In this document: piece by piece, positions 1,625 through 45,895 of the stretch
How positions within the stretch are numbered: the stretch's first letter is position 1
Layout of the letters: each line of letters starts with the position of its first letter
NCBI GenBank assembly: GCA_030583865.1
Contig: CP129479.1
Span: 1,540,744-1,604,743, forward strand
Reading direction: 5' to 3'
DNA from: Thermodesulfobacteriota bacterium
GTDB taxonomy: Bacteria > Desulfobacterota > GWC2-55-46
DNA length: 64,000 nt
Notes under the pieces: model-generated
The model's input: the letters and a program-made list of their open reading frames with translations, nothing else
The model's database searches: none
What the model was told of the DNA's origin: nothing
Position numbers and translations under genes: made by a program

Positions 1625-3289
1625 TTAAGCCCTCGCGCCCTCGCTCTCTACCGGAAGGAGTATCCTGAAGGCCGCGCCCCTGCCCTCACCGCTCGAGACC
1701 TCGATGGTGCCGCTATGGCTCTCTATTATCCTGTGGACTATGGCGAGGCCGAGCCCCGTGCCCCTCTCCTTGGTCGAGAAGAAAGGGTCGAATATCCTGC
1801 ACGCGTCCTCGGGCCTTATGCCCTTGCCGGTATCGGATACCGTGACCTCGACAAAGCCCATTCCGGCATCGTCCGGAAGGCCGCCCTCCGGCCAGCGCCT
1901 CGCTGACACCGTCAGGGTTCCACCGCCTTCCATGGCGTGGAGGGCGTTAAGGAAGAGGTTCCAGAAGACCTGGCCGAGCTGCCTGTGGTCCCCGACTATG
2001 CTGAACCGCTCGCCTATTTTCGACTCTATGCGGATACCCGAGGCCTCCGGGCAGTTCCTTATGAGCCTCACCGTCTCGTCGATCACGGCCGAGAGGTCTA
2101 CAAGCTCCCTCTCGGCCTCCCTCGCGGGCTTGGCGAAAAGGAGGTAGTCGGTTATGAGGCTGTTTAGCCTGTCGGTCTCGGAGAGTATGATGTCCATGAG
2201 CCGCCTGTTCTCGCCCCCGGCGGATTCAGCCCGCAATAGCTGTATGGAGCCGCTAATCGAGGCGAGCGGGTTCCGTATCTCGTGCGCTATGCCGACCGAG
2301 ACCTCGCCCAGGGCCTTCATGCGCTCGTCCCTCCTGAGCGCCTCCTCCATCTGCTTGAGGCGCGTGAGGTCCTGGAAGATGATTATCCTCCCGACCTCGC
2401 CGCCCTGGCCCTGCGAGATGCTGAAGCCCAGGTATATCTCCTCCCCGGTCCTTTTCCTGAACCTCTCCTCCACTCTCCTCCCGCCCTGCGGGGCCAGGAG
2501 GCCCTTCCGTATCATGCCCGGGAATATCTCCTCGACGTCCTTGTAATAAACGTCCCGGAGCGTATAGCCTGTGACGCCCTCGGCCTCGCGGTTGAAGGAG
2601 GTTATCCTCATCCTGTCGTCGAGCGTCATTATGCCGCTCGTTATGTTCTCGATTATCTGCCTGTTCAGGGCCTCGAGCTTTTCGTAATCGATCTCCTTCT
2701 CTTCGAGCTCCCTTTCCACCCTCGCGGCCCTTTCGGCGAGATAGCCGGTAAGGTAGGCTACCGTGAAGAACGCGAGTATGTTGGTCGAGACCGTTACGAA
2801 GACGTATTTCCAGGGCGGCGCGAAGGCCGGTGAGACGAGCTTGTACTCCGCCGGGAGCATACCGTAGAAGTCGAGGTCGATGAGGACCCCGTAAGCTATG
2901 CTGGAGACCGAAGCCGCGTAGAACCCCGCGCGCTTTCCGAGGAGTATGGCCGCGCCTATCACGATAAGCGGATAGAGCGCGTGCATGTAGCTTTCGGTGC
3001 CGCCCGTTATGTAGACGATTACGGTGGCGAGGGCTATGTCTATGGTGACCTGGGCGTAGGTGAAGAGCTTGAGGTTCCGTACCCTGCCCAGGAGTAGCGC
3101 GTAGAGGATGGTGAGGAGCCCCACGGCCGCCGCAACGCCGTAGAGCGGATAGAAGTTGAGGAGCGCAAGGGACGCCCCTCTCACCTGGAACCAGGCGGTG
3201 ACTCCCAGGAAAGAGAGCGCAAGCACCACCCTCAAGACCATCATGGCCAGCAGCCTGGCCCCTAGAGCATCCTTCGGGTAAGCCTGCAT
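1625..3289 (-). CDS. pilS: PilS-like membrane sensor histidine kinase
   Basis: Sensor kinase partner of the downstream response regulator. The first 180 residues contain about six hydrophobic segments, as in PilS. A coiled linker and a PAS domain follow (about residues 205-315). Then comes a HisKA domain with phosphoacceptor H336 in IAHEIRNP, and a HATPase domain with DTGKG and GTGLGLAI boxes. The length, 554 residues, is normal for the family. The ATG at 3289 is preceded by AGGTCCGGA. It lies 12 bp after pilC, so pilC-pilS-pilR probably share a transcript. In PilS the membrane segments are thought to sense pilin level; nothing here contradicts that. Confidence 0.92.
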   Translation of the reverse strand: MQAYPKDALGARLLAMMVLRVVLALSFLGVTAWFQVRGASLALLNFYPLYGVAAAVGLLTILYALLLGRVRNLKLFTYAQVTIDIALATVIVYITGGTESYMHALYPLIVIGAAILLGKRAGFYAASVSSIAYGVLIDLDFYGMLPAEYKLVSPAFAPPWKYVFVTVSTNILAFFTVAYLTGYLAERAARVERELEEKEIDYEKLEALNRQIIENITSGIMTLDDRMRITSFNREAEGVTGYTLRDVYYKDVEEIFPGMIRKGLLAPQGGRRVEERFRKRTGEEIYLGFSISQGQGGEVGRIIIFQDLTRLKQMEEALRRDERMKALGEVSVGIAHEIRNPLASISGSIQLLRAESAGGENRRLMDIILSETDRLNSLITDYLLFAKPAREAERELVDLSAVIDETVRLIRNCPEASGIRIESKIGERFSIVGDHRQLGQVFWNLFLNALHAMEGGGTLTVSARRWPEGGLPDDAGMGFVEVTVSDTGKGIRPEDACRIFDPFFSTKERGTGLGLAIVHRIIESHSGTIEVSSGEGRGAAFRILLPVESEGARA

Positions 3290-37606: not shown

Positions 37607-37771
37607 AAAAAAAAACCTCTTCTCTGGTTGATAAGAAGAGGCGCCGTCCGTTACCTTTCTTATCTTCCAAGGCTTCAAGCCTTGCTGGAATTAGCACCTG
37701 GCGTCCCGCTTTTGGCGGAACCGGTTGCTGTGGCTTCACAGGGCCAGTCCCTCTGCCACTCTCGATAAGAG
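37607..37771 (-). ncRNA. SAM-I (S-box) riboswitch with intrinsic terminator
   Basis: The minus strand shows the S-box core in order: CTTATCGAGAGTGGCAGAGG, GACTGG, CCCTGTGAAGCCACAGCAAC, AGGTGCTAATTCCAGCAAG, and closing P1 strand GGAAGATAAG. Aptamer: 37771-37659. Downstream, CCTCTTCT/AGAAGAGG (37641-37616) plus nine T residues is a terminator. Its 5' arm TTCTTATC can instead pair with the P1 strand GATAAGAA, giving a classic antiterminator switch. High SAM should stop transcription before thrC and the sulfur genes. Confidence 0.95.
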
Positions 37772-39560: not shown

Positions 39561-41198
39561 TCAGAATATCTCGTTAAAAACACTCAATATATGCGGCACC
39601 ACCTGCTTTTTACGGGATATCACGTTCTTGAGCTCAAACACGCCTTCCTTGAGCTTCGGGTAATTGAGCTTGTAGAGCACCTCGTTTTCGCCGACCGCCA
39701 GGAGAAGCGATGTGCCCTGCGAGATGTCGGTGACGAGGAGCCCGGCGAGCTTGAGCTCCTTTTTATCCCTGGCCTTCAGGAGCTCGCCCGTGAGGTTCGC
39801 GGCCTCCTGGTGGAACTCGTCGAAACCGATAATCTCTACCTGACCAATGCCGAATTTCCTGCCCTTGGCCTCGAACACCTTGAAGTCCCCGGCAACAACG
39901 GCCTCCGCGCCCCTTTTCCCGAGGCTCGCGCTCGCGCCGAATACCTCAGAGCCGAAGGCGGCGTGGTCGAGTCCGGATTTCTCCTCGAGCCACTTGATTA
40001 TGTCCCTGTCGCGGGCGGTAGTGGTCGGCGACTTGAGCATCACGGTGTCGGAAAGGACGCCGCCGAGGAGAAGCCCCGCGGTCTCCTTCTTTATGGGAGC
40101 CCCGGTCCTTTTATACAGCTCGGATACGAGCGTAGAAGTAGAGCCCACCGGCTCGCATATGAAGGGAATGGGCTGGGTGCAGGTGAAGTTGCCTATCCTG
40201 TGGTGGTCCACGACCTCCATTATGTTCACGGCTTCCGCGCCGTCCACGGCCTGCGATAGCTCGTTATGGTCGACCAGGACGAGGCTCGTGGAAGGCGGCT
40301 TCAGTATGTCGGTCTTCGTGATGACGCCCTGCATAACGCCTTCCGAGTCGAGCACTATGAGCCCGGCTGCAGAGGCGGCCTTGAACTTGAAATCATCTAC
40401 AAGGTCGTCGGGGGATACCGTATCGAAGCTCGTCTCGCATATCATCGATGCCGGTGTGCTCACCCTTACCAGTATCGAGGTAGTGGCCGAATCGAAAGGC
40501 GACACGATTATGCTTACGCCGCGCCTTGAGGCCTCCTTCGCGAGGCTCTCGTCGACGTCGAAGCCGCCGGATATTATGAGGAGCCCGACCCCCTTCTCGA
40601 CCGCCCTTTTCTGTATCTCCACCCTGTCGCCCACTATGAGCGCGCATTTGGACGGGTCTTCCTGCCCGAGGATGTACAGGAAGGCCTCCTCAGACATCGC
40701 CCCGATGTAGACCGTAAGCGTTATTTCCCTGCTGCCGAGCGAGTCGTTCCTTACCCTTGCGCCGAGCGTGTGGACTATGTTCCTGAGGGAAGTCGTCACC
40801 TCTATCGAGTGCTCGGCCTCCAGATACCTCTTTGCGAGCTCCATGAGGGTCAACACCCCCTTTGGCCTCCCGTCCTTGTCAAGGACAGGCATGAACCTGA
40901 CCTCTTCTTCCCTCATGAGCTCCAATACCCTGTGGAAGGGAGTGTCCTCGGTAACGGTCACGATGCCAGTGGACATGATGTCCCTTGCCTTCGGGCGTAC
41001 GTCGGATATGTATTTCGGCGGCTGCACGTTGAAGTAATTGAGTATGAACTCAGTCTGGGGGTTGAGGTCCCCTGCCCTGGCCGGCAGGAAATCTCCCTCC
41101 CCGAGCGCGTTCTTGAGCTCCGCGAGCGCTATCGCCGAGCATATCGAATCAGTATCCGGGTTCTTGTGGCCTATTACGTATGTCGCTTCCTTGCTCAC
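39561..41198 (-). CDS. ppaC: Family II Mn-dependent inorganic pyrophosphatase with CBS and DRTGG domains
   Basis: Hydrolyses pyrophosphate to drive biosynthesis. The DHH part begins GHKNPDTDS and continues after a regulatory insert, with the metal motif VVDHHRIGN and then the DHHA2 domain ending the protein. The insert has a CBS domain (about 70-130 and 245-305) around a DRTGG domain. In studied CBS-PPases these bind adenine nucleotides or diadenosine polyphosphates. GTG at 41198 was chosen (545 residues) because GGAG lies eight bases upstream; the ATG 14 codons earlier has no spaced site. Confidence 0.92.
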   Translation of the reverse strand: MSKEATYVIGHKNPDTDSICSAIALAELKNALGEGDFLPARAGDLNPQTEFILNYFNVQPPKYISDVRPKARDIMSTGIVTVTEDTPFHRVLELMREEEVRFMPVLDKDGRPKGVLTLMELAKRYLEAEHSIEVTTSLRNIVHTLGARVRNDSLGSREITLTVYIGAMSEEAFLYILGQEDPSKCALIVGDRVEIQKRAVEKGVGLLIISGGFDVDESLAKEASRRGVSIIVSPFDSATTSILVRVSTPASMICETSFDTVSPDDLVDDFKFKAASAAGLIVLDSEGVMQGVITKTDILKPPSTSLVLVDHNELSQAVDGAEAVNIMEVVDHHRIGNFTCTQPIPFICEPVGSTSTLVSELYKRTGAPIKKETAGLLLGGVLSDTVMLKSPTTTARDRDIIKWLEEKSGLDHAAFGSEVFGASASLGKRGAEAVVAGDFKVFEAKGRKFGIGQVEIIGFDEFHQEAANLTGELLKARDKKELKLAGLLVTDISQGTSLLLAVGENEVLYKLNYPKLKEGVFELKNVISRKKQVVPHILSVFNEIF

Positions 41199-41300
41199 TC
41201 GCCAATCTCCAGCTTTTCTGTTTTTTATTTTATACCGCATCCTCTCAAGAACCGATGAAACCCGGACAGGCCCCGTGAAGCAGAAGGGTCTTTTATGAAG

Positions 41301-42275
41301 CTACCACCCGAGGACCCACGCGAATATCAGGGGGGCCACTATGGTCGCGTCGGATTCGATCACGAACCTCGGGGTGTCGATTGAGAGCTTGCCCCAGGTT
41401 ATCTTCTCGTTGGGCACGGCCCCGGAGTACGAGCCGTAGCTCGTGGTCGAATCGGATATCTGGCAGAAGTAGGTCCAGAAGGAAATGTCCTTCATCTTGA
41501 GGTCCTGCCTCATCATGGGGACGACGCATATGGGGAAGTCCCCGGCTATGCCGCCGCCTATCTGGAAAAAGCCCACGCCCTGGCCGGAGCCGTTCTTGCC
41601 GTACCAGTCGGCGAGCGCCACCATGTACCCTATTCCGGACTTGACCGTCGTGGCCTTGAGCTCCCCGGTTATGCAGTACGAGGCGAAGATGTTCCCGAGT
41701 GTCGAATCCTCCCACCCGGGGACTATTATGGGGAGGCCCTTTTCGGCGGCCGCGACAAGCCAGCTGTCCTTCTCGTCTATCTGGTAGTACTGCTTCAAGA
41801 CGCCGCTTTTTATGAGCTCGTAGAAGAACTCGTGCGGAAGACGGCTCTCGCCCTTGTCGTTCGCGGCCTTCCAGAGGTCGAATATGTGGGACTCGATCCT
41901 CCTTATGGCCTCGTCCTCGGGTATGCATGTGTCGGTGACCCTGTTGAAGCCCTTCTCAAGGAGTTCCCATTCGTCCGCGGGGGAAAGGTCCCTGTAGCCG
42001 GGCACGCGCCTGTAGTGGTCGTGCGCCACGAGGTTGAAGACGTCCTCCTCGAGGTTCGCGCCCGTGCAGGAGATTATGCTCACCTTGTCCCTGCGGATCA
42101 TCTCGGCAAGGGATTTCCCGAGCTCCGCCGTGCTCATCGCGCCCGCAAGGGTGACCATCATCTTGCCGCCCTTGTCCATGTGGGCCTCGTAGGCCTTTGC
42201 CGCGTCAAGGAGCGCGGCCGCGTTGAAGTGCAGGTAGTGCTCCTCGATAAACCTGGATACGGCCCCTTTCTTCAT
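41301..42275 (-). CDS. Deoxyhypusine-synthase-family protein (bacterial)
   Basis: A 324-residue NAD-dependent enzyme of the deoxyhypusine synthase fold. Family segments seen are MMVTLAGAMSTAELGKSLAEM, STGANLEEDV-like CTGANLEEDVFN, VPGWEDSTLGN, and GGGIAGDFPICVVPMM. Bacteria have no hypusine on EF-P, and bacterial homologues are thought to make homospermidine or other polyamines. The specific role here is open. It lies 102 bp upstream of the pyrophosphatase gene on the same strand. Confidence 0.88.
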   Translation of the reverse strand: MKKGAVSRFIEEHYLHFNAAALLDAAKAYEAHMDKGGKMMVTLAGAMSTAELGKSLAEMIRRDKVSIISCTGANLEEDVFNLVAHDHYRRVPGYRDLSPADEWELLEKGFNRVTDTCIPEDEAIRRIESHIFDLWKAANDKGESRLPHEFFYELIKSGVLKQYYQIDEKDSWLVAAAEKGLPIIVPGWEDSTLGNIFASYCITGELKATTVKSGIGYMVALADWYGKNGSGQGVGFFQIGGGIAGDFPICVVPMMRQDLKMKDISFWTYFCQISDSTTSYGSYSGAVPNEKITWGKLSIDTPRFVIESDATIVAPLIFAWVLGW

Positions 42276-42459: not shown

Positions 42460-44043
42460 TCAATTGTGCTCCCTCGTCCTGTGAAATGTTATATCCGGCC
42501 ACTGCTCGATAGTGTAATTGAGCTGCCACTCGCTCGGAGCGAGGTAGGCGAGGTTGCCTTCGGTATCCCTCGCAAGCCTCATCGAGTTCTTCTTCTCGAA
42601 CTCATCGAGCTTCTTTCTCTCCCCCTCTATCCACCTGGCGCGCTGCGCCTCGATCGGCTCATAGGCCGCGTCAACGCCGTACTCGTCCCTGAGCCTCGCC
42701 ATAGTCACGTCGAACTGGAGCGCCCCGACCGCGCCGAGTATGTAGTCGTTCCCGGCAACCGGCCTGAAGACCTGGACAGCGCCCTCTTCGGTAAGCTGCT
42801 CAAGCCCCTTCTGGAGCTGCTTTACCTTCATGGGGTTCTTGAGTATCACCCGCCTGAAGTGCTCGGGCGCAAAACTCGGGATGCCGGTGAACTTAAGGGG
42901 CTCCTTTTCGGTAAAGGTGTCCCCTATCATTATGGTGCCGTGGTTGTGGATGCCTATTATGTCGCCCGCGTAGGCCTCTTCGACGTTGGTCCTGTCCTGG
43001 GCCATGAATATGGTCGCGTTCGAAAGGATGAGCTCCTTGCCGGTCCTGTGGTGCACCACCCTCATGCCCCTCCGGAACCTCCCGGAACAGATCCTCATGA
43101 ACGCTATCCTGTCCCTGTGCGCCGGGTCCATGTTCGCCTGTATCTTGAATGCGAAACCCGTGAAGGCCTCCTCGTGGGGATTAACGACCCTCTCGACCGC
43201 CGCCCGCGGCCCGGGCGGGGGCGCAAGCTCGACGAACGCGTCGAGGAGCTCCCGGACTCCGAAGTTGTTTATGGCGCTCCCGAAAAAGACCGGCGACTGG
43301 CTCCCCTTCAGGTAGTCGTCAACGTCGAACGGGTTTGCCGCGCCTTCGAGCAGCTCTATATCGTGCCTGAGCTCCCCTGCCTGCCCGCCCAGAAGCTCGT
43401 CAAGGCGCTTATCTCCGATATCGGTGATCACTATCCCGGAGGAAGACCTCGTCTCCTCGCCCGGGGTAAAGAGCTGAAGCTCCTTCCTGTAGAGGCTGTA
43501 CACGCCCCTGAACGCCTTGCCGGAGCCTATGGGCCAGGATAGCGGCGCGCACTCGATCTGGAGCTTGTCCTCTATCTGGGCGAGTATGTCCAGGGGGTTC
43601 ATCCCCTCCCTGTCGAGCTTGTTTATGAAGGTCATGACGGGCGTGTTCCTCATGCGGCACACGCCCATTAGCTTCTCGGTCTGCGTCTCGACGCCCTTGG
43701 CCGAGTCTATGACCATGAGTGCGCTGTCGACCGCGGTAAGCACCCTGTAGGTGTCCTCGGAGAAGTCCTGGTGTCCGGGTGTGTCGAGAAGGTTCACCTC
43801 GAAGTCCCTGTAATTGAACTTCATGACCGAGGTGGTGACGGAGATGCCCCTCTCCCTCTCGATGGCCATCCAGTCGCTTGTCGCGTGGCGAGAGGCCTTC
43901 CTGGCCTTCACGGCCCCGGCAAGCTGTATCGCGCCGCCGTAGAGGAGGAGCTTCTCGGTAAGCGTGGTCTTCCCGGCGTCGGGGTGGCTTATTATGCCGA
44001 AGGTCCTCCGCCTCTCGATTTCCTTTTGAAGGTTCCTGGACAT
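42460..44043 (-). CDS. prfC: Peptide chain release factor 3
   Basis: A translational GTPase that recycles RF1/RF2 after termination. The 527-residue protein has the G1 motif [13 protein letters not shown]2/G3 region SVMKF and [19 protein letters not shown], and G4 NKLDREG. The C-terminal RF3 domain contains EGAVQVF. ATG at 44043 is preceded by AGGAAAAG. The promoter and an unexpected leader terminator lie directly upstream. Confidence 0.96.
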
Positions 44044-44098
44044 CTTTTCCTGTCGCTGAAAGCCCGGCTTAGTGGTCCCGGGCCGCTACGTAGAAAAT

Positions 44099-44127
44099 AA
44101 AAAAATGGGCCTGGGAAGAAGGCCCAT
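44099..44127 (-). terminator. Intrinsic terminator in the prfC leader
   Basis: On the minus strand ATGGGCCT/AGGCCCAT forms a perfect 8-bp stem around TCTTCC, followed by seven T residues. It begins only a few bases after the predicted transcription start of prfC and ends about 55 bp before the ATG. The poly-T side shows that it acts toward prfC. Confidence 0.8.
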
Positions 44128-44137
44128 TCGGAAAAGG

Positions 44138-44166
44138 ATTATACAATATCGGAGTACGCCGGTCAA
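44138..44166 (-). promoter_or_regulatory. Promoter of prfC
   Basis: On the minus strand TTGACC (44166-44161) and a perfect TATAAT (44143-44138) are separated by 17 bases. The expected start is near 44131, immediately ahead of the leader terminator. Confidence 0.8.
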
Positions 44167-44311
44167 CGGATAAAGAACCCGCGGGGAAAGGCGAGTTACA
44201 ACTTCGAGGACGGGTTGTAAGTATTACGACGCACTGATTGACTTTCAGGCGGCGGTATGATAATTCTCGCCATTGAAAACAGATGATTTCTCTCGGAAAA
44301 TCGCCGTCTCA

Positions 44312-45895
44312 ATGACACAGAAGACCGCCGTTATAATAGGTGCCGGGCCTGCCGGCCTTACCGCGGCCTTCGAGCTGCTTGAAAAAACGGACGTAAAGCC
44401 CGTCATTTTCGAGCAGACCGCCGACATAGGCGGGATTTCGAAAACGGTCAATTACAAGGGAAACAGGATAGACATCGGCGGCCACCGGTTCTTTTCCAAG
44501 TCCGACAGGGTGGTCGAGTGGTGGCTCAAGGTACTTCCTCTTCAAACCTCCCCTGCAAAAGACGATTCTCCTGAAAACGCGAGTTTTCTGACCGGCGGCT
44601 CTCAGCGGTTTTCCGCTCCACCAGGCAGCAGAAACTCCGACCCCGAAAAGACCGACCGGGTAATGCTCGCAAGAAAGCGGCTCTCCCGCATCCTATTCAT
44701 GCGGAAATTTTTTGATTACCCGATATCCGCGAACATGAAAACGCTGCGGAACCTCGGGGCCTTTCGCACGGCAAAAATTCTTGTGAGCTACTTCCGGGCC
44801 AGGCTCGCGCCGGTCGAGGAGAAGTCCCTTGAGGACTTCTTCATAAACCGGTTCGGGAAAGAGCTTTACGCGACTTTCTTCAGGGATTATACGGAGAAGG
44901 TCTGGGGCGTGCCGTGCAGCGAGATAGACCCGAGCTGGGGCGCCCAGAGGATCAAGGGGCTCTCAGTGACGAAGGCGCTGTTTCACGCGGCAAGGGGCAT
45001 GGTCTCCGACCGCTCCCTTGAGCAGAAGGACGTAGAGACGAGCCTGATCGAAAGGTTCATGTACCCCAAATTGGGCCCCGGCCAGATGTGGGAAGAAGCG
45101 GCGCGCATGATAAGGAAGCGGGGCGGCGAGGTGCACCTGAACCACCGCGTAGCCGGGCTGAAGGCAACCAGCGGGAGGATATACGAGGCCGTTGTTATCG
45201 ACGAATCGACCGGCGAAGAAAAGACGGTCTTGGGAGATTACTTCATATCGTCGATGCCCGTAAAGGACCTGATAGCCGCAATGGGACACGACGCGCCCCG
45301 GGAAGTTCGGGAAGTTGCCGGGAGCCTTGCCTACCGGGACTTCATGACAGTCGGGCTCCTCCTCAAAAAGCTCCTGGTCAGCCCGAAAGACGCCCCCAAC
45401 GGCATTATTCCCGACAACTGGATTTACGTCCAGGAAAATGACGTAAAGCTCGGGAGGATCCAGATATTCAACAACTGGAGCCCGTATATGGTGATGGACG
45501 GCGGCGCCGTCTGGATCGGCCTTGAATACTTCTGCAACGAGGGAGACGAACTGTGGCGGAAGTCCGACGATGAATTTGCCACGTTCGCGGGAGAAGAGCT
45601 GGAAAAGCTGGGCATGATAGTCAGGGAGGATATCCTTGACAGCACCGTCATACGCATGCCGAAGGCCTACCCCTGCTACTTCGGCTCCTACGAGCGGTTC
45701 GAGGTCGTAAGGAAATTCACCGACACCATTGAAAACCTGTTCCTTATCGGGCGTAACGGCATGCACAGGTACAACAACCAGGACCACTCGATGCTCACGG
45801 CCATGGTCGCGGCAGAGAACATAAAGAACGGGATCAGCACGAAAGAAAACATCTGGTCTGTAAACGCGGAAGAGGAATACCATGAGTCCAAATAG
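44312..45895 (+). CDS. FAD-dependent amine-oxidase/UDP-galactopyranose-mutase-like protein
   Basis: A 527-residue flavoprotein from ATG 44312, directly ahead of the dinucleotide motif [22 protein letters not shown] 13 codons earlier is an alternative; neither has a strong ribosome site. [17 protein letters not shown] and the end [20 protein letters not shown] resemble the UGM/protoporphyrinogen-oxidase-like group often found in surface-polysaccharide loci. The reaction is not known. The following gene, a broken membrane glycosyltransferase, overlaps it by 14 bases, which supports a polysaccharide role. Confidence 0.8.

Follow-up and report, generated by a model that had tools for sequence, protein, structure and literature searches.

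In E. coli, the greA leader gives rise to the GraL RNAs, which are terminated transcripts of 37-59 nt, and roughly one third of transcripts are read through (Potrykus, Dylewski et al.; PMC6829880). A second leader terminator, the rimP-leader, is a lone GGGC..GCCC hairpin followed by a U stretch and located 4-130 nt from the gene, and feedback by NusA has been proposed for it (Naville & Gautheret 2010, PMC2965389; Rfam RF01770). In the B. subtilis nusA leader, termination is stimulated by NusA, resulting in NusA feedback (Mondal et al. 2016, reviewed in PMC12288461). The B. subtilis ABC-F gene vmlR is controlled by attenuation (PMC9226507). Control of the amount of peptide chain release factor 3 (RF3) in bacteria appears to be little studied, and we found no described attenuator of its gene, prfC, in the literature searched, whose searched main texts do not contain prfC.

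We analyzed a prfC leader within a 64-kb stretch of a Thermodesulfobacteriota genome (the window). The gene (42460..44043, minus strand) encodes a protein of 527 aa, whose identity as RF3 is confirmed by scores far above cut-off for TIGR00503 (760 bits) and NF001964 (857 bits), along with an RF3_C domain (PF16658). Its upstream neighbor, a FAD/NAD(P)-dependent amine-oxidase-like protein of the PRK07208 family (44273..45895, plus strand), is divergent and lies outside the device. Directly 3′ of prfC is a gene for a deoxyhypusine synthase-like protein (41301-42275, minus strand; homospermidine synthase/DHS family, under equivalog cut-offs). Beyond it, 39561-41240 (minus strand) encodes a DHH-DHHA2 protein that also contains CBS and DRTGG domains, a domain composition seen in regulated family II pyrophosphatases, and a similar gene occurs 3′ of prfC in genome G007. 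The sole Rfam match at gathering level within the window is a SAM riboswitch (RF00162, 94 bits, 37657-37771, minus strand). A search for prfC in viral contigs found two distant relatives.

The prfC promoter consists of a -35 hexamer TTGACC (44161..44166) and a -10 hexamer TATAAT (44138..44143) on the minus strand, separated by 17 nt and agreeing with the consensus at 11 of 12 positions. Promoter geometry (7-9 nt past the -10) predicts a transcription start at 44129..44131. A hairpin, GAATGGGCCTTCTTCCCAGGCCCATTT (44103..44129, minus strand), begins about 8 nt past the -10. It reads GAATGGGCC-TTCTTCCCA-GGCCCATTT and has a stem of 8 perfect pairs, or 10 when an outer G-U and an inner U-A pair are counted, with the core GGGCC (44125-44121) / GGCCC (44111-44107). 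Its minimum free energy is -15 kcal/mol (z -4.6), and none of 200 shuffled sequences was equally stable. A U tract of seven T residues (44105-44099), followed by ATTTT (44094..44105 in all, minus strand), lies some 60 nt upstream of the prfC ATG (44043), which is preceded by a Shine-Dalgarno-like AGGA (44048..44051, minus strand). The plus strand lacks a T tract after the hairpin, so the terminator is directed to the minus strand only. The original prediction of a near-consensus promoter, followed near its start point by a perfect 8-bp hairpin and seven T residues directed at prfC, was thus correct. These features are those of an intrinsic terminator in a 5′ leader, namely a GC-rich stem with a direct U tract that faces the gene from within the promoter-to-gene interval. 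As expected of a 5′-leader attenuator in the broad sense, orthologous leaders also retain the element, and its stem shows compensatory changes among them.

We consider it probable that this intrinsic terminator is fused to the prfC start site and attenuates prfC in cis, with partial read-through. RNA polymerase would start at the base of the hairpin, which would be fully formed once the polymerase enters the T7 tract (approximately +25 to +32). A large fraction of polymerases would halt there and release a stem-loop RNA that would measure about 30 nt, while the remaining polymerases would read through to make prfC mRNA, such that the terminator would set the level of RF3. In this role, the conserved hairpin is probably an evolutionarily maintained brake on prfC that aborts most transcripts at about 30 nt. 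The start site, termination and partial read-through are what we infer from the arrangement of these parts.

Because the predicted transcript begins at the hairpin, there is no room for a leader peptide or an upstream antiterminator. The earlier observation that no leader peptide is apparent is thereby strengthened, and neither the leader ORF nor the mutually exclusive upstream stem of a classical attenuator is found at prfC. With this start, nothing is transcribed upstream of the hairpin and no ribosome or Rho could yet be loaded; therefore, read-through can depend only on polymerase and the factors bound to it. Possible inputs would be NusA, NusG, GreA and the ppGpp/NTP state. If a factor does regulate prfC read-through, NusA is the most natural candidate, although this choice is speculative. 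Neither an antiterminator nor an element for ligand binding is present, so regulation rather than constant damping finds no support, and a constant brake on prfC fits the data equally well. Regarding known elements, no riboswitch came near its gathering score in 43950-44350, and only sub-threshold Rfam matches occur at prfC, e.g., L20_leader with 17.7 bits versus a gathering score of 58.7.

Terminator-like sites are not enriched around prfC by themselves (4 observed versus 4.1 expected), but their combination with a promoter exceeds chance, as judged in the same genome from sampled stretches together with whole-genome searches. In a sample of 464 kb from the 2.75-Mb genome, we loosely called 493 terminator-like hairpins, and the sole hairpin with a promoter of at least 10/12 consensus positions within 20 nt upstream is that of prfC. 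The same sample contains 114 genes whose upstream neighbor is divergent; just 4 of them carry a terminator-like leader hairpin, the strongest being that of prfC. The whole genome contains the pattern TATAAT-N4-14-GGGC..GCCC-T5 a single time, at prfC, and a search of this genome with a covariance model of the element (R1) likewise yields prfC alone. R1 was built from chosen elements, so that its matches to those elements arise by construction; its independent results are the copies at ABC-F genes described below, a second copy in genome G003, and the absence of other matches in the genome of the window. A genome-wide habit of the lineage is ruled out, given that the 464-kb sample has no other case with such a promoter and R1 finds only prfC. 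Together with the conservation and covariation presented next, the genome-wide search also rules out a chance origin of the promoter-terminator.

An alignment of seven members of the genus and family shows TTGACC, TATAAT, the GGCCC 3′ arm and TTTTTTTATT of the U tract as the main invariant blocks, whereas the spacer, loop and leader diverge. The T run is also kept in homologous elements. Among 18 diverse elements, one pair of the stem is U-A in 10 rows and C-G in 7, and another switches from C-G to U-A. Paired cells amount to 94% across these elements, compared with 14-57% for slid controls. These data lend support to the original proposal that the layout could be an attenuation device for RF3.

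The distance from the -10 to the GGG of the stem is 13.2 ± 2.8 nt, bounded by the method in that elements were picked for having both parts and promoters were sought 3-20 nt upstream, whereas the distance from hairpin to coding sequence is 52 ± 28 nt. Because the former is kept and the latter is variable, the hairpin is tied to the promoter and not to the coding region. This bears on the possibility that the hairpin terminates an upstream transcription unit, its overlap with the promoter region of prfC being incidental. In some relatives (G004, G002 and G019), a same-strand gene does end 100-150 nt upstream, and Geobacter-type and Desulfovibrio-type loci may belong to this category. For the element as a whole, the conserved distance to the promoter argues against such a role, as does the divergent gene upstream in the window and in G007. 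In the window, the terminator has no immediately upstream gene on the minus strand that it could serve, and in both of these genomes only the prfC promoter, or stray antisense transcription, can feed it. An upstream-unit terminator thus has only the slimmest chance of being the explanation. The unit itself is constant, but the gene upstream of it differs between genomes: by eye, this gene is a divergent oxidoreductase in the window, a divergent ABC-F gene in G007, and a same-strand holA-like (G004), transporter-like (G002) or TPR-like (G019) gene. A Uup-like ABC-F gene is a divergent or upstream neighbor of prfC in several genera (L009, L010, L011, L015 and L247; also judged by eye).

Since its first base coincides with the predicted start or lies only a few nucleotides away, the hairpin has the geometry of protective 5′ stems, and it might be a 5′-end stabilizer that protects prfC mRNA from 5′-dependent decay, or an aid to translation initiation, with termination being minor. 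However, mRNA protection does not need the long T run that directly follows the stem and is kept in homologues, and the hairpin varies in its distance from the start codon, so we consider this explanation unlikely. In several relatives (L006, L007, L132 and L133), the gap between the hairpin and the match to the coding region is just 21-22 nt, which leaves no room for a second promoter, and therefore the prfC mRNA must cross the terminator.

The original prediction also raised the idea of a start-proximal sRNA. Under this idea, the element would primarily be a gene for a trans-acting RNA of about 30 nt, and the terminator would lie in the prfC leader incidentally. A short terminated RNA is indeed expected. 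On the other hand, it would be nearly all stem, and the loops vary in both length and sequence (UUCUUCCCA, UCCCA, UUCG, UGAC, AUGC and AAUUUCU), which implies that there is no conserved seed. Moreover, Hfq (PF17209) has no match in the complete, single-contig genome of the window, while the same search was positive in five control genomes. We reject an Hfq-dependent trans-acting sRNA given the lack of an Hfq match and of a conserved loop, and we consider it very unlikely that the element is primarily a trans-acting sRNA gene.

RF3 itself is patchily distributed: within the class, 18 of 63 genomes have it, and in the phylum sample, 74 of 247 do. The promoter-terminator unit is present in all six RF3-bearing genomes of the window's genus (L001-L005 and L008), all four of a second genus of the family (L006, L007, L132 and L133) and the one genome of a third (L009). 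Another member of the family, L014, has the unit with a longer gap. The hairpin is lost in L010, L011, L012 and L015, which represent four further genera of the family and retain a TTGACC..TATAAT-like promoter. Thus, the hairpin is not missing from close relatives, the condition under which the original proposal would have failed: every member of the genus that has prfC carries it, although the family also includes genera without it. In other families, the layout occurs in genus g54 of family f29 (L137-L140 and L143), in Desulfogranum (L036, the cultured Desulfogranum japonicum DSM 18378), in Smithellaceae (L037, L038 and L044), and in L033, L050, L053, L142, L144 and L149. A strict automatic rule recovers the layout in 10 of the 71 RF3 loci sampled from the phylum, representing 5 of 31 families, and we did not find it in the beta/gamma loci surveyed. 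Given these numbers and the losses within the family, the prfC hairpin is dispensable. On a tree of RF3, the trait clusters, with 10 changes against 18.6 for shuffled data, but there have been several gains or losses.

When 247 genomes were scanned with the covariance model, three g54 genomes (G078, G115 and G205) proved to have an unsought second copy of the unit, approximately 2.8 kb away from the one at prfC. The duplicated block of about 100 nt comprises the promoter, hairpin, U tract and a little of the leader, and the copies are 90-95% identical (positions 2010-2110 and 4826-4925 of L243; likewise in L244 and L245). The second copy precedes a YbiT-like ABC-F gene, whose best NCBIfam model is PRK15064 with 633 bits, below the cut-off of 762. 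The order in these genomes is a copy of the unit, the YbiT-like ABC-F gene, a gene encoding an RNase D-like exonuclease domain, and the prfC copy. In genomes G178 and G150, the prfC copy alone was found, and the contig of G178 ends nearby. Upstream sequences of ABC-F/uup genes inspected in other genomes contained no unit beyond g54. In g54, the unit behaves as though it were a movable promoter-terminator module at two ribosome-related genes. A tentative extension, which we think could be right but would not expect to be, is that it is a portable cassette without a sensor, in which the terminator lies at +1 and read-through is decided by polymerase state and bound factors alone. If so, the cassette would couple the amounts of RF3 and, in one genus, of a YbiT-like ABC-F protein to the state of the polymerase, e.g., free NusA or ppGpp.

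Membership in the rimP-leader family would make the prfC element a NusA-feedback terminator motif that is common to prfC and the rimP-nusA-infB operon. The core of the rimP-leader, a GGGC..GCCC hairpin with a U stretch and no antiterminator, is found at prfC, and is also present in some ordinary 3′ terminators. Terminator-like hairpins occur in the leaders of 32 of 38 rimP loci of the phylum (L290-L327), mostly of the GUGGGC..GCCCAC type, i.e., AAAGUGGGC..GCCCACUUU-U6-7. In Smithellaceae, prfC is divergent from rimP-nusA-infB, and the prfC element there reads AAAAGACGGGCAUAUGCCCGCUUUUUUU. In one such locus (L037), prfC runs from 2680 to 1 (minus strand) and rimP-nusA-infB starts at 3001 (plus strand), with leader terminators at both. 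With our own rimP-leader model (R2), built from 24 rimP leaders of the phylum, prfC scores 23.4 bits, whereas the true rimP leader reaches 44 bits. At least four further sites in this genome outscore prfC, and most of them are ordinary terminators at gene ends. Membership was first backed by a 467-kb control and then undercut by the whole-genome search. In addition, RF01770 has no match at the prfC element (E ≤ 1), and the characteristic AAAGUGGGC..GCCCACUUU stem is absent. The Rfam rimP model had no match above cut-off in the seven genomes searched with it. We consequently regard membership in this family as quite improbable.

Returning to cis attenuation as our preferred reading, the prfC element can be compared with each of the described systems. 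Leader translation is involved in the control of vmlR. The proposed prfC device would similarly act at the leader on a ribosome-associated factor, but the prfC leader cannot hold an upstream ORF. Like the B. subtilis nusA leader, the prfC leader has an intrinsic terminator without RNA switching, although modulation by NusA is reported there and conjectural for prfC. With the rimP-leader, it shares a single GGGC..GCCC terminator, the U stretch, the lack of an antiterminator, a translation-related gene and a variable distance to that gene. By contrast, the stems differ (GAAUGGGCC at prfC versus AAAGUGGGC), and the prfC hairpin lies at the start site, whereas the rimP hairpin of the same genome appears to lie at least about 30 nt past its likely -10.

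The layout of GraL is also similar, in that the gene encodes a housekeeping factor and its 5′ UTR has an intrinsic terminator right behind the promoter, with no leader peptide. However, the gene is prfC and not greA, such that the element does not have the greA-leader location that defines GraL, the phylum is different, and we claim no sequence relation. While about 19 nt precede the terminator structure in GraL, the corresponding distance at prfC is 0-8 nt. The upstream sequence of GraL matters for autoregulation by GreA, and prfC has no such sequence. A conserved terminator at +1 would approach the shortest possible attenuator, because ribosomes, Rho and RNA switching are excluded and polymerase-bound factors alone remain. 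It would therefore be a clean test object for the tuning of intrinsic termination by NusA, NusG or ppGpp in vivo. The prfC element resembles both the greA leader with its GraL RNAs and the rimP-leader in layout, and belongs to neither.
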